From contig JABWCQ010000019.1 of assembly GCA_013360195.1 (NCBI GenBank), positions 1-53,384 of the forward strand: 53,384 bases of DNA, read 5' to 3'. The notes under the pieces were generated by a model. The model saw only the letters and a list, made by a program, of their open reading frames with translations. It was not told the DNA's origin and did not search any database. The first letter of the stretch is position 1, and each line of letters begins with the position of its first letter. Shown here piece by piece: positions 4,510-10,110 of this stretch. This DNA is from a bacterium. Lineage in GTDB: Bacteria > Electryoneota > RPQS01. Both the position numbers and the translations under genes were made by a program.

Positions 4510-4794
4510 TCAAACCGGCGTACAGCGAAACCCTTCCGGTTCGCTCTCTTCCCACTCCTCAATCGGATCGTCTTTTATCGCTTCAAGCATGACGGGACGT
4601 GCCGCCAGCCAATCCTCTTTTGTCTCCCAAATCGCCAATCCAATCAGCGCGCCTGTGTCCTTGTCCTCAAGTTGATACACATCCCGCAGACCCTTGCACG
4701 TCTTCATTGCCGCGCCGAATCTGCGCATGGAGTCAATCAGAAGGTCACGCTTCTCAGGCTTGGGATGTCGATGTATGCCAATGGAAACAAACAA
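4510..4794 (-). CDS. ABM-type (antibiotic biosynthesis monooxygenase / Dabb-like) small protein
   Basis: 94 aa dimeric alpha-beta barrel-type protein. Its pattern 'MFVSIGIHRHPKPEKRDLL ... LRDVYQLEDKDTGALIGLAIWETKEDW' fits the ABM superfamily of small oxygenases and heme- or quinone-handling proteins. The start is TTG at 4794 with GGAG 8 bases upstream. A diverged copy of its first 15 codons lies at about 5609-5652, fused to a tyrS fragment; there the same peptide uses an ATG start and many synonymous codons. Substrate unknown. Confidence 0.65.
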   Translation of the reverse strand: MFVSIGIHRHPKPEKRDLLIDSMRRFGAAMKTCKGLRDVYQLEDKDTGALIGLAIWETKEDWLAARPVMLEAIKDDPIEEWEESEPEGFRCTPV

Positions 4795-5479: not shown

Positions 5480-5652
5480 ACCCAACCCTCACCACCAAAT
5501 ATTCCTTCTTCCCCTTGCGCAATACCAGCAATTCCCCGTCAATCAGCAAATTCGGATTCACAGTGCTCGCCGCATCCGTTATCCGGCCCGATTCAATCAT
5601 GCGGCGGGCTTCTCAGGCTTAGGATGTCTATGTATTCCAATCGAGACGAACA
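5478..5652 (-). pseudogene. Chimeric remnant: ABM 5' end fused to tyrS 3' end
   Basis: Reading the minus strand, 5652-5609 encodes the exact first 15 residues of the ABM-type protein at 4.5-4.8 kb (MFVSIGIHRHPKPEK), but with different codons. The sequence then passes into the tail of a tyrosyl-tRNA synthetase: EARRMIESGRITDAAS, later LLIDGELLVLRKGKKEYL, stop at 5478. The two parts are in different frames. The junction falls in a GAAGC shared by both genes, which suggests microhomology-mediated joining. The tyrS part is 99 bp identical to the real gene's end at 7271-7369. It cannot make either protein. Confidence 0.8.
5487..5585. repeat. 99-bp direct repeat, copy 1 (tyrS 3' end)
   Basis: Identical over 99 bases to 7271-7369, at an offset of 1784 bp. 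Similarity continues for about 30 bases beyond 5585 with several substitutions. The two copies bracket the Ntn hydrolase gene pair. Confidence 0.9.
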
Positions 5653-5715: not shown

Positions 5716-5904
5716 CTACTTCTTATTCTGCGATTTTCGCTTCAGTTTTCTTATCTCAGACTTTACGGCATCAACAACACCTGTAGTAGGCCTTGATGCT
5801 ACAAGTAACTCTTGAGGTGTTCCTATATGGTCCTTTTCCCCCAAATAGAACTGTCGAAACTGTTCAATTGAAGTTACCGAAATCGCTTTTACACTTCTTG
5901 CCAT
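5716..5904 (-). CDS. Small basic protein encoded with the Ntn hydrolase
   Basis: 62 aa, unknown. It has a helix-prone middle ('SIEQFRQFYLGEKDHIG') and a strongly basic C-terminus (EIRKLKRKSQNKK). The ATG at 5904 has a strong AGGAGG-TGAGGA ribosome site that overlaps the stop codon of the upstream Ntn hydrolase gene, only 10 bp away, so the two are clearly co-expressed. It could be a regulator, adaptor or substrate of the hydrolase; the sequence does not say which. It shares the A+T-rich composition of its partner, unlike the flanking genes. Confidence 0.65.
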   Translation of the reverse strand: MARSVKAISVTSIEQFRQFYLGEKDHIGTPQELLVASRPTTGVVDAVKSEIRKLKRKSQNKK

Positions 5905-5914
5905 TCCTCACCTC

Positions 5915-7210
5915 CTAGTATCGTGCCATATGACGTGGATTCAGCGACGAATCAAAATACAATTTGCGTTCCTTCCATACAAAGCCGTCATTCTTGGAAA
6001 TGATGGCAACATCGACAGGTCCTCCGACTGTCTCTTCGTCAGTTGAAACTCGCCTCTTAAAAGAAGTCAAGTTTACCAATGTCAGTGCCATTTCAGCCAA
6101 ATCTGCTTTATCGAGAGATTTAACAATACTCACAATCGGAGAGACAAAGTTCTTGCGCCTATACTCTTCCAGTTTTCCAGAAAAGGCCGACTTCGCCTTC
6201 TTACCAAGATCAGTGGCAAAGTCATTTGTTAACTGTTTCTGGTTCGGCGCTAAGCCAGCGATACCATCGACATGTGCAATAGTTTCTCCAACTATTATGT
6301 CAATTACAGAACCAATATCGTTTTCAATGGCCTTTTGATACCCTGGGTCAACACCTTCCATAACTGTGCTTATCATGTCACCTTGCGCAAACGGTACAAC
6401 AAGTGCGCCGCTTTCAAGTGTTACTTCCCTTTTTGCAATCTCTTGAATTCTCAAACCATTTTGAAATATACCAAAGAACCTTTGATAAACAAGATGCGGA
6501 AAATACTCAGCTTCACCATACCCTGCAAACACAATCCCAGAGTAATTTTCTGGGAAAAGTGATTCACGAGTCACAGCCATCGTAGCAATTTTGCGAAGGT
6601 TCTTTTGGTCAACTTGTGACAACGGCAATTTTGCAAAGGCGGCAGAAATTGTCTTATCAATTTCGGCAGAAAGCGAAGCTTCAAGTTGCCGCTCAATGCG
6701 CTTATTGTAACCAGCGCGGTAGCTTTTCTTGCCAAAATCCAGCTTTGAGCGCTCAATTGCCGCCGACAAAACTGCCCTAACATCTCTTGGTGTGGCGCGT
6801 CCTTTGTTTCTTATTGTCCTTTTTATGCCGGGTTCGACCAAAGTTTTTATCAATGACACAAAACAATTATAGAAAACCGTCATTATGTAGTTTTGCTGTA
6901 CATCATTGGAAAACAAATCAGTTCTTGACGCAAGGTATCGCTGAAAATCACTTGAGTATTCTTCGAGTGTTCCAAAAGTGCGTTGTTTAAGGTCTTCATC
7001 GCGATACGATTTTATTAAGAGATCCCATGGAAAACCAATAAACTCTGCTGATCCAAAGATCATTACACCTATTGGTCTTGTGGCCGAAAGCGCAAAAATC
7101 TTTTCAGCTGTTGGCTTTATCTTTGTTGCACCTGTGGTTGAAAAAGTTGCAGCGCTGTCCGCCGCAAGCACTACGCCACGTTTGTTTAGGATTGCAATTT
7201 CAGCTGTCAA
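5915..7210 (-). CDS. Proteasome beta-subunit-like Ntn hydrolase, long form
   Basis: 431 aa. The N-terminus aligns with 20S proteasome beta subunits: 'MTAEIAILNKRGVVLAADSA', then 'AEKIFALS', then 'PIGVMIFGSAEF'. After Met removal Thr2 would be the N-terminal nucleophile; Asp18 and Lys37 (before IF) match the Asp/Glu17 and Lys33 of the proteasome active site. The remaining 200 or so residues have no proteasome counterpart, so this is not a normal beta subunit (about 200 aa). The start is TTG at 7210, with GAGGAA 7 bases upstream, and places Thr directly after the initiator. No alpha subunit, ATPase or HslU/ClpX partner is nearby. A 62-aa gene follows. The pair sits between duplicated tyrS ends. 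Fold recognition is by eye; protease activity is inferred. Confidence 0.65.
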   Translation of the reverse strand: MTAEIAILNKRGVVLAADSAATFSTTGATKIKPTAEKIFALSATRPIGVMIFGSAEFIGFPWDLLIKSYRDEDLKQRTFGTLEEYSSDFQRYLASRTDLFSNDVQQNYIMTVFYNCFVSLIKTLVEPGIKRTIRNKGRATPRDVRAVLSAAIERSKLDFGKKSYRAGYNKRIERQLEASLSAEIDKTISAAFAKLPLSQVDQKNLRKIATMAVTRESLFPENYSGIVFAGYGEAEYFPHLVYQRFFGIFQNGLRIQEIAKREVTLESGALVVPFAQGDMISTVMEGVDPGYQKAIENDIGSVIDIIVGETIAHVDGIAGLAPNQKQLTNDFATDLGKKAKSAFSGKLEEYRRKNFVSPIVSIVKSLDKADLAEMALTLVNLTSFKRRVSTDEETVGGPVDVAIISKNDGFVWKERKLYFDSSLNPRHMARY

Positions 7211-7261: not shown

Positions 7262-8504
7262 TCAGAAAATCCTCACCACCAAATATTCCTTCTTCCCCTT
7301 GCGCAATACCAGCAATTCCCCGTCAATCAGCAAATTCGGATTCACAGTGCTCGCCGCATCCGTTATCCGCCGATTCAATCATCCGCCGCGCTTCGCCTTT
7401 AGATTTGAATAAGCCAGTTTCGACGATCAAATCAACAACATTTTTGCCGCTTTGAATTTCACCCTTTGCAATCGAGTGCGAGGGTACGTCGGCAAATATT
7501 CCCGCGACGTCTTTGGCAGACAAACCATCCAACGCTCCGCCAAACAAAACTCTCGCCGCGCGTTCCGCCGCTTGCACTCCGCCCTCCCCATGCACGAGCT
7601 TCGTCACTTCTCTCGCCAGCTCCGTCTGCGCAATTCTCTTCTCCGGTGAACTCGCCGTCACCTGCGCAAGTTCCTCAATCCGCTCGCGCGTCAGGAACGT
7701 AAACGTCTTCAAATAGCGGTCTACGTCGCGGTCGTCGGTGTTATACCAGTATTGATAAAACTGGTACGGCGACGTCATATCGGCATCCAGCCAAACTGTT
7801 CCCGCCTCGGTTTTCCCGAATTTCTGTCCGGTGGAAGTTGTCAGCAGCGGAAACACCATCGCGTGCGCCTTCCCCTGCCGTTTGCGGCGAATCAAATCCG
7901 CCCCCGCCGTAATATTTCCCCACTGGTCACTGCCGCCGATTTGCAGCGTGCAGTTGTAACGGTCAAACAGTTCAAGATAGTCGTACGCCTGCATCAAGCT
8001 GTACGTGAATTCCGTGTAGGAGATACCTGTCTCACTCTCAAGCCGTCTGCGCACGGACTCCTTTTGCATCATCACATTGACGGAAAAATTCTTGCCGATT
8101 TCCCGCAGAAACTCCACCATCGTGACGGTGTTGAGCCATTCGGCATTGTCAACGAAAATCGCGCGATTCGCCACTCCGTCAAATTCGAGAAACTGCCGCA
8201 GTTGTCTCGCCATTCCTGCGACATTCTCGGCAATCTGATCCACCGTCTGCAAATTCCGTTCAGCAGATTTTCCCGACGGATCTCCAATCATACCGGTTCC
8301 GCCGCCCATCAGCACAATGGGGGTATGACCGAATAGCTGGCAACGGCGCAATTGCAGCAGCGGAACGAGACTGCCAACGTGCAGCGATTTCGCAGTCGGG
8401 TCAAAGCCCGAATAGACCACCAGCGGCTGCTTAACGGCTTCAGCGGTTTCCGCAGTCGCATCGAAGACCAGTCCGCGCCATTGAAACTCTTCAAAGAGCG
8501 TCAC
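7262..8504 (-). CDS. tyrS: Tyrosyl-tRNA synthetase (frameshift near the 3' end)
   Basis: Class I aminoacyl-tRNA synthetase charging tRNA-Tyr. Visible marks are the HIGH-like 'SLHVGSLVPL', 'GGGTGMIGDPSGKSAERNL', the tyrosine pocket 'YSLMQAYDYLEL', 'QIGGSDQWGNI' and the KMSKS-like 'KFGKT'. The start is GTG at 8504, 4 bp after the upstream gene's stop, with AAAGG before it. Near 7370 the reading frame slips: the expected S-G-G-I-T-D has lost two bases, as if two GGG runs were each read as GG, so translation ends early at 7323 after an out-of-frame tail. Past that point the correct frame continues to a normal end (...YLVVRIF, stop 7262), giving about 414 aa. Without repair the enzyme lacks most of its S4 RNA-binding C-terminus. 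A sequencing or assembly error in the repeat is quite possible. Confidence 0.9.
7271..7369. repeat. 99-bp direct repeat, copy 2 (native tyrS 3' end)
   Basis: Identical to 5487-5585. It is part of the native tyrS gene; the tyrS frameshift lies exactly at the edge of the identical tract. Confidence 0.9.
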
Positions 8505-8508
8505 GAAT

Positions 8509-10110
8509 CTAACCTTTCGGAGTCGGTGTCGCGCGCTGCTTGCGCGTACGCAATGCGCGCAATCTGCTCGACACGGTGAGCGCTTCCAGTGCGGCGAGTG
8601 TAGAAATTTCGGTGACGCTGACGCGTTTGTCGACACCGGTCGCGTACACGTTTAGTGCGGAATCGTGCCACCACTTCGTATCATCGTCCTGCCGCATTGT
8701 CAGATGAGTGCGCGCGGTGGCAAGCTGTTCGGCATACTTTGCCGGGCGCAGACTCAAGCCGCGAATCGCCATGGCCGTATGCCACGACGTCAGGCCGAGC
8801 TCATCGCCGAAACCGCCGAGCACATGCTGTTGAGTGATAATCCAATCGAGCGCCCGTTCAACCTGCGCACGAGCGCCGCCAAAAGCATCGAGGGCTTCGG
8901 CAGCCAGCACGGTACTGGCCAATTGCGACTTCATGGTTGACGCGGGGAAGGCGCCGTTCTTCAACTGCTGTCTCTTGACGAAGGCAGCCGCTTTGTTCAT
9001 CACTCCAATAGAGCTCTGTTCACCGCATTCGCAAAGCGCGAACAAGGCCGCGCTTGTTGCATCGGCACTCGCTTCACGCAGGCCGCGCATGCGATACCAT
9101 CTGTATTCAGGAATCACAGAGTAGCTGCCGTCCGGGTTCTGTGCCGCTGCCAGAAATGCCGCAGCACGGCGTCTGGCCCAATGTGTTTCGAGCGGAACGT
9201 CTCCGAACAGCGAGAGCGCATCCAGCACAGCGGCGGTGGTTAAGACATCCACATCCTGGCCGCTGCCTATGGCCCAGCCGCCCGACGGGTCTTGTTGATG
9301 CAGAAGCAGCATAACTGACGGTGCGACGTCGTTGTTTTCGGCACCCGCCAAGAGCAATGCGCGCACGGTCGCGGCATGCAATGCCACGGTCATATCGCAA
9401 GGCGATTGAATTAAATCCTTCCCGTCCCACTGCTGCAGCACGCGCATGAAGCGAAAGCCGCGTTCAAAGAGCGAATCCGAACCGGGCAATCCGGCCTGCC
9501 GGAGCGCGGCCATGGCCAACGCAGTCGTGCGCACATTGCCTTCCCAGCTGCCGTCACTGAGTTGTCTGCGGATGAGCTCTGACATTCGAGTGTTGTCACG
9601 TCCTGCGTCGTTCATGAGCAGATGCGCGGCGAGCTTGCGGGACGTGTTGTGGTTGCGGAAGCTCCATTCGACCGCAACTCGGAGCGCGGGCTTGAGCAGA
9701 TTCTTGAAGCGTATCGGTGCACCAAGTCCGGTCGTGTGCCCCAAGAGCAACAGCGTTTCGGCGCGCAGCTGCTTGCGCTTCGGATGCTCTTCAAGCCAAG
9801 TCACAGCCTTATTCAGATGAGGGCGCGCTTCAGGTCGTTGTGATTGCGACAGTGCCTGGACGATTTCGAGTGTCCGAGATAAATCATTGCTCCAACTCCC
9901 GTTTTCTTCCTGCTCGTTGAGAATCGGCCGCACGAGCGGCGCAACGTCATCGGCGGGAAGTTTGCCAAGAAGCGTTCCCAAAAGCAAAGCCATGGCATTT
10001 CGTTCAGCGCACGGTCTGATGGAGACCGGCCAAACGGGAATGCTGCTTTCTGCGCGCTGCATCAAGCGAGTGCGAAGTTGCTCAAGAGAATTAGGAGTCG
10101 GATTGGCCAA
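8509..10110 (-). CDS. Prenyltransferase/squalene-oxidase-repeat (alpha/alpha-toroid) protein
   Basis: 533 aa, soluble, built of QW-like repeats: 'LNEQEENGSWSNDLSRTLEI', 'RQLSDGSWEGNVRTTALAM', 'HQQDPSGGWAIGSGQDVD', 'AAQNPDGSYSVIPEYRWYR', 'KRQQLKNGAFPAST', 'ITQQHVLGGFGDELGLTSW'. This is the alpha-toroid fold of squalene-hopene cyclases and protein prenyltransferases. The cyclase DXDD acid motif is not evident; 'QDVDVLTTA' is the closest, so cyclase activity is doubtful. Start TTG at 10110 overlaps the end of tadA by 20 bp, and the stop is 4 bp before tyrS, so it belongs to a tadA - toroid - tyrS operon. Confidence 0.8.
   Translation of the reverse strand: MANPTPNSLEQLRTRLMQRAESSIPVWPVSIRPCAERNAMALLLGTLLGKLPADDVAPLVRPILNEQEENGSWSNDLSRTLEIVQALSQSQRPEARPHLNKAVTWLEEHPKRKQLRAETLLLLGHTTGLGAPIRFKNLLKPALRVAVEWSFRNHNTSRKLAAHLLMNDAGRDNTRMSELIRRQLSDGSWEGNVRTTALAMAALRQAGLPGSDSLFERGFRFMRVLQQWDGKDLIQSPCDMTVALHAATVRALLLAGAENNDVAPSVMLLLHQQDPSGGWAIGSGQDVDVLTTAAVLDALSLFGDVPLETHWARRRAAAFLAAAQNPDGSYSVIPEYRWYRMRGLREASADATSAALFALCECGEQSSIGVMNKAAAFVKRQQLKNGAFPASTMKSQLASTVLAAEALDAFGGARAQVERALDWIITQQHVLGGFGDELGLTSWHTAMAIRGLSLRPAKYAEQLATARTHLTMRQDDDTKWWHDSALNVYATGVDKRVSVTEISTLAALEALTVSSRLRALRTRKQRATPTPKG

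Follow-up and report, generated by a model that had tools for sequence, protein, structure and literature searches.

The tyrS island and its two genes

The window, a 53,384-nucleotide stretch of bacterial DNA, carries a two-gene island between two copies of the 3' end of tyrS (Table 1). The open reading frames, their positions and lengths, and the duplicated tyrS ends on either side are as an earlier note on this DNA had described them. The junction between the two genes reads ...TACTAGGAGGTGAGGAATGG, hence the ribosome-binding site of the second gene, AGGAGG, overlaps the TAG stop of the first, again as described, and translation of the small protein is probably coupled to that of the hydrolase. 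The pair has a GC content of 42.2%, compared to 53% for the window, the lowest value among 519 segments scanned, and no other 1.5 kb of the window is as rich in A+T as the two genes, in agreement with the contrast to their neighbours that had been claimed.

Table 1. Features of the island and of the adjoining tyrS region (positions in the window)
Feature	Position	Strand	Basis
PMI-4/phrog_5990 proteasome-like N-terminal-Thr hydrolase	5915..7210	-	431 aa, TTG start, GAGGA upstream
Hydrolase catalytic residues Thr2, Asp18, Lys37	5915..7210	-	Homolog conservation, AlphaFold2 model, Foldseek
Hydrolase helical insertions, about residues 102-214 and 289-365	5915..7210	-	AlphaFold2 model
Basic 62-aa partner, ATG start	5716..5904	-	ORF call and partner-family comparison
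Shine-Dalgarno AGGAGG of the partner, overlapping the hydrolase TAG stop	5910..5917	-	Sequence
Proximal copy of tyrS 3' end, direct repeat, lacking 23 nt relative to related tyrS	7268..7394		Sequence comparison
Distal copy of tyrS 3' end, direct repeat, lacking 21 nt in frame	5484..5612		Sequence comparison
tyrS, host gene at the insertion site, truncated C-terminal S4 domain	7323..8636	-	ORF, Pfam, tyrS comparison
45-bp piece attached to the distal tyrS fragment, with 87% identity to 4749-4793	5608..5652		Sequence comparison

The two tyrS copies are 99% and then 88% identical, with a 2-nt indel, and both lack the codons for a GGVYVNN stretch of the S4 domain that is present in relatives. Because the proximal copy lacks 23 nt, tyrS is frameshifted in its S4 domain near the end of the gene. 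No other tyrS turned up in the genome. The frameshift could reflect either a genuine scar of the insertion or a misassembly at the repeat. The one further genome of the genus lacks the island and has the cupin gene next to tyrS, and a sample of 60 other genomes, chosen as relatives, yielded no full-length homolog of the hydrolase. The direct repeats, the empty site in the sister genome and the low GC content support the horizontal transfer that the earlier note had proposed. No integrase lies within the island. A circle that carried a tyrS tail would leave such repeats on integrating, whether by a site-specific or a homologous route. The neighbourhood of tyrS has been rearranged more than once. 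The 45-bp piece copies the start of a monooxygenase-like gene (4510-4794), of which the part of the sister genome used for comparison yielded no homolog.

A predicted proteasome fold with two helical insertions

The first 55 residues of the hydrolase had been likened to a proteasome beta subunit with Thr2, Asp18 and Lys37 in place. The corresponding Pfam resemblance is weak (PF00227, E = 0.1, residues 5-55, below the cut-off), and we uphold it because conservation among homologs, the AlphaFold2 model and the Foldseek comparison agree. Prediction of the hydrolase alone returned an Ntn/proteasome fold (pLDDT 94.7, pTM 0.90), and a Foldseek search of the PDB with this model gave three matches at E ≤ 0.001, all of them proteasome beta chains (20S beta chains, E = 3 × 10-4). 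Anbu came next with E = 4 × 10-3, just above the cut-off, and the other top matches were proteasome or Anbu chains; target-normalised TM scores were about 0.52. Across 108 divergent homologs, 28-38% identical to the window protein, T2, D18, S19 and K37 are invariant, a pattern without which, according to the earlier note, the assignment should fall; Thr occupies position 2 in 168 of the 169 homologs with an intact start. Pooled pN/pS among close pairs is 0.11. On this model the protein is a proteasome-fold (Ntn, T1) hydrolase with an N-terminal threonine.

The chain is indeed long, as had been remarked, but its excess over the normal length consists of two helical insertions within a single proteasome domain and not of an added domain. 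In the model, helices H1 and H2 are present (residues 62-74 and 82-95), one insertion follows H1/H2 (pore loop), the other lies between H3 and H4, and the S3/S4 position holds none.

The hydrolase is a full-length match to phrog_5990 (E = 5.6 × 10-107), an unannotated family that gives no function. NCBIfam gave no match to it, phmmer against the PDB gave no usable match, and Foldseek against BFVD with the model returned nothing significant. Single-sequence searches of viral and genome contigs found no homologs, because the family is only about 30-39% identical to the window protein and an alignment is needed as the query. With alignment queries, homologs came from phages, plasmids, IMG/VR (80 kept of 150 relatives) and GTDB genomes (80 kept of 453). 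They span bacteria, many archaea and viruses, and archaeal and environmental genomes hold many copies. Two genomes of the same phylum (G037 and G016) also encode proteins of 266-271 aa (L173, L174 and L175) that resemble the family profile at its two ends (GIVLAADS, VGGDVDVALVTK) and are without the long insertions; by their sequences, these are probably a sister proteasome-like family.

Relation to known proteasome homologs

Fuchs, Alva and Lupas described 22 new proteasome homologs in silico in 2021, among them PMI-4 (Proteasome homolog with Multiple Insertions 4), which has several hundred members in many bacterial phyla, Euryarchaeota and phages (PMC8665760). Within that set, insertions after H1/H2 and between H3/H4 are combined only in PMI-3 and PMI-4, and between these two only PMI-4 is numerous and found in phages (PMC8665760). 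Our model has both insertions at these places, together with the proteasome fold and the catalytic triad, and the collected homologs show the same wide bacterial, euryarchaeal and phage distribution. As the combination of insertions, the occurrence in phages and the abundance fit PMI-4 only, the window hydrolase is, by insertion pattern, size and distribution, almost certainly PMI-4, a feature-based assignment in which the reference (HDY66466.1, OC.661505-661513) was compared by its published description. The hydrolase family itself is therefore already known. Its discoverers found neither a genomic context nor a co-occurrence pattern that hinted at function (PMC8665760), and the literature we covered, with few subscription papers or preprints in it, contained no functional study of the family. 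What is new here for PMI-4 is the conserved small partner, the positions as mobile cargo and the linkage to bacterial ubiquitin-like (Bub) conjugation genes.

With HslV and the 20S proteasome beta subunit the hydrolase shares the catalytic Thr/Asp/Lys and the beta-sandwich core, but it is twice as long and comes without HslU, alpha subunit, AAA+ protein or propeptide. A 20S identity is rejected, since no alpha-subunit or AAA+ gene recurs among 141 adjacent genes of the homologs, and at 431 aa the protein is not the compact subunit of about 175 residues that accompanies HslU; the host genome has a separate proteasome-family gene of HslV size on another contig. No Pup gene recurs beside the homologs either, which fits the stand-alone enzyme suggested earlier. 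Anbu is likewise proteasome-like, lacks a propeptide and is among the closest folds, but has about 235 residues, a C-terminal H5 coiled coil, a split ring and no large insertions. Connectase is also a stand-alone proteasome homolog with helical insertions; it lacks H1/H2, however, and carries a two-helix insertion at S3/S4, the reverse of our model, so that this identity too is rejected.

A conserved small partner

In 80 of 107 non-redundant loci (75%), an ORF of 45-80 aa preceded by a Shine-Dalgarno sequence starts at -40 to +30 nt from the hydrolase stop, whereas the same criterion finds one behind 40 of 686 control genes of these loci (6%; Fisher P = 2 × 10-55). The small gene thus belongs to the neighbourhood of the homologs, and its absence there would have spoken against the original proposal. 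A profile built from 59 partners was run against the 23,304 small ORFs of all loci. It matched 71 of them at E < 0.01; all 71 lie directly behind the hydrolase gene and none elsewhere. After leaving out relatives of at least 45% identity, 53 of the 59 were still recovered, a recovery that is not fully blind because an aromatic-hydrophobic-Pro motif had served to choose these 59 beforehand, while the comparison with control genes is blind. Pooled pN/pS for the partner is about 0.19 among close pairs. The partner is genuine and conserved, as the earlier note had supposed, and is under purifying selection as a two-gene unit with the hydrolase. The two genes stay together in bacteria, archaea and viruses.

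In its common form the partner has a basic N-terminus, then [FY]xS[IM]xEFExxYFPxS and then a second helix ending in LAxESLxxIRxxL, with a motif that drifts strongly between lineages. Pfam gave no family at a meaningful level, and PHROG at most unnamed families. The partner of the window aligns to the family with TSIEQFRQFYLGE against KSMREFEEKFFPES, its aligned stretches being TSIEQFRQFYLGE ... GVVDAVKSEIRKLKR. Its score against the family profile is weak (45 of 5000 shuffles score as well), and for this reason we regard it as a divergent member of the partner family mainly by position. In a model of a read-through fusion (L027), where hydrolase and partner are in frame, the partner helices have a pLDDT of 72-85 and are joined through a disordered linker. 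Two loci, L094 and L105, have an intact enzyme and no recognised partner.

Mobile contexts

Next to the homologs in genomes, no Pfam family occurs in more than 3 of 141 adjacent genes. Since no neighbour besides the partner recurs more often than this, the pair itself is the unit. Several Streptococcus satellite phages carry it close to their end, and a Streptococcus prophage has it at its end, behind the lysin. In one locus it lies on the strand opposite to the adjoining lysis genes, in another it stands between an adenine methylase and a holin, and it also occurs on plasmids. A hydrolase match occurs in 22 of 5426 E. coli genomes, and the three inspected all lie in prophages. In one E. coli prophage type the hydrolase directly follows a CI-like repressor, as rexAB does in lambda, and a second type has it near Q, on the opposite strand. 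Of the neighbours recognised in 36 non-redundant viral loci, repressors, Q antiterminators and endolysins are the most frequent, with repressors only modestly above a rough expectation. Lysogenic-conversion and defence genes are usually found at such lysogeny-region and phage-end positions. Prophages, satellite phages and plasmids carry the pair sporadically as mobile cargo, and the hydrolase has a patchy distribution (3 of 386 sampled genomes); many homologs also stand in ordinary chromosomal surroundings with varied neighbours. No PADLOC model of a known anti-phage system was matched; applied to the neighbours of the genome homologs, PADLOC gave few matches, with occasional defence genes.

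Linkage to bacterial ubiquitin-like conjugation genes

In four Rhizobium and Mesorhizobium plasmids the hydrolase gene adjoins multiubiquitin and ThiF genes, and a fifth plasmid (R. gallicum NZ_CP017104) has the same genes with the spacing of its sister plasmid. Among 50 hydrolase-bearing genomes and plasmids tested, eight contain Multi_ubiq, within about 3 kb of the hydrolase in seven, and L086 is an additional linked locus. Bub genes stand beside the hydrolase in L010, L012, L070, L084, L086, L088, L201 and L203. A common divergent layout is seen in L010, L086 and L088, with DUF6527, E1, E2 and Ubl genes on one side and a sigma-like gene, an unknown gene and the hydrolase on the other, followed by a small ORF in L086 and L088. 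In L084 a Multi_ubiq gene and an E1 gene directly precede the hydrolase on the same strand, with a gap of 14 nt between E1 and hydrolase; the ORF between Multi_ubiq and E1 is E2-like by position only. The Bub-linked hydrolases fall in at least four places on the tree, and most homologs have no adjoining Bub genes. As a base rate, 386 sampled genomes contain the hydrolase in three cases and Multi_ubiq in six, with no overlap.

Shared residence in mobile or defence regions could bring these genes together. The repetition of their gene order nevertheless argues for a functional coupling of hydrolase and Bub. Bub operons are putative immune pathways for which phage protection has so far not been demonstrated, and the same source does not mention proteasomes (PMC13373217). 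The window holds no adjacent Ubl, E2 and E1 genes, so a Bub pathway is rejected for the island itself. No Multi_ubiq was found in the genome of the window, in a search whose controls were also all silent, and the link therefore concerns the relatives of the window pair.

Two further genes accompany these loci. In the Bub-linked clade a sigma-70-like gene lies ahead of the hydrolase (L088, 7020-7613; L010, 4931-5521; L086, 7071-7553), which suggests dedicated transcriptional control. At the Rhizobium ubiquitin-like operon that adjoins the hydrolase, a ClpP-like protease gene closes the operon (L012, 11602-12210; L201, 10863-11423), and so two protease types flank one tagging system.

Proposed function and alternatives

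We propose that the pair is a mobile, two-component threonine hydrolase that needs no unfoldase and is served by a small regulator or adaptor, that it has a role in conflict, and that in some lineages it is coupled to Bub, a reading to which we give a probability of about one half. Removal of Met1 by methionine aminopeptidase would expose Thr2, the nucleophile of a catalytic set that also comprises Asp18 and Lys37, and no propeptide would be needed. The two helical insertions probably cap the face of the active site and would take the place of the ring and the AAA+ gate; for this reason the capped hydrolase, as a single chain or a small oligomer, could act on proteins that are selected or unfolded. 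The partner, a translationally coupled basic protein of 50-70 aa that is predicted to be mostly helical, would be its regulatory subunit, either adaptor or inhibitor. Mobile elements may keep the pair since it would aid the host in conflict with other elements. Carriage and position point to a probable role in host-virus conflict, most likely as an anti-phage or stress effector encoded by lysogens or satellites. Where the pair is coupled to Bub conjugation, it may act on tagged proteins.

The same observations can be arranged differently. The many homologs in ordinary chromosomal surroundings, and the many copies in archaeal and environmental genomes, would suit a quality-control or stress protease that mobile elements carry incidentally, with the partner as an assembly or activation factor and no part in conflict. 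We hold this to be unlikely, given the very patchy distribution, the frequent carriage by prophages, satellites and plasmids, the lysogeny-region positions and the Bub linkage. The fold could also serve a specific protein ligase or transferase, as connectase ligates as a monomer (PMC8665760), and a small, closely paired partner with one conserved central motif might then be a substrate or a tag that is cleaved and joined to targets. However, connectase owes its specificity to the S3/S4 site, whereas the insertions of the hydrolase lie elsewhere, and a motif that drifts between lineages is not a strict recognition sequence; a ligase of this kind thus appears rather unlikely.

Two translationally coupled genes on mobile elements, the second of them small, also recall a toxin-antitoxin-like addiction pair in which the free hydrolase is toxic and the small basic protein restrains it. 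But the enzyme gene comes first, the enzyme is intact in L094 and L105, where no partner was recognised, and no toxin-antitoxin family was matched, and we consider such a pair quite improbable. In another reading, PMI-4 and its partner are the degradation or processing arm of Bub tagging in the Bub-linked lineages, and the window cassette is a mobile form that is independent of Ubl. Ubl-tagged proteins would be handed to the hydrolase without an AAA+ unfoldase, with the partner as receptor or gate. We put this forward tentatively and hold it unlikely. If true, it would amount to a ubiquitin-proteasome-like pathway built from bacterial parts.

The conflict-related hydrolase with a small regulator is the reading that we prefer, and the pair makes a good candidate for a defence or stress system that destroys proteins on its own. 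The proteasome homologs described in 2021 came without a functional lead; for PMI-4, the partner, the lysogenic-conversion niche and the Bub linkage now provide three hypotheses open to direct test. Should the Bub link prove functional, ubiquitin-like tags and a relative of the proteasome are paired in bacteria, and such a pairing, if true, would bear on the origin of the eukaryotic ubiquitin-proteasome system.
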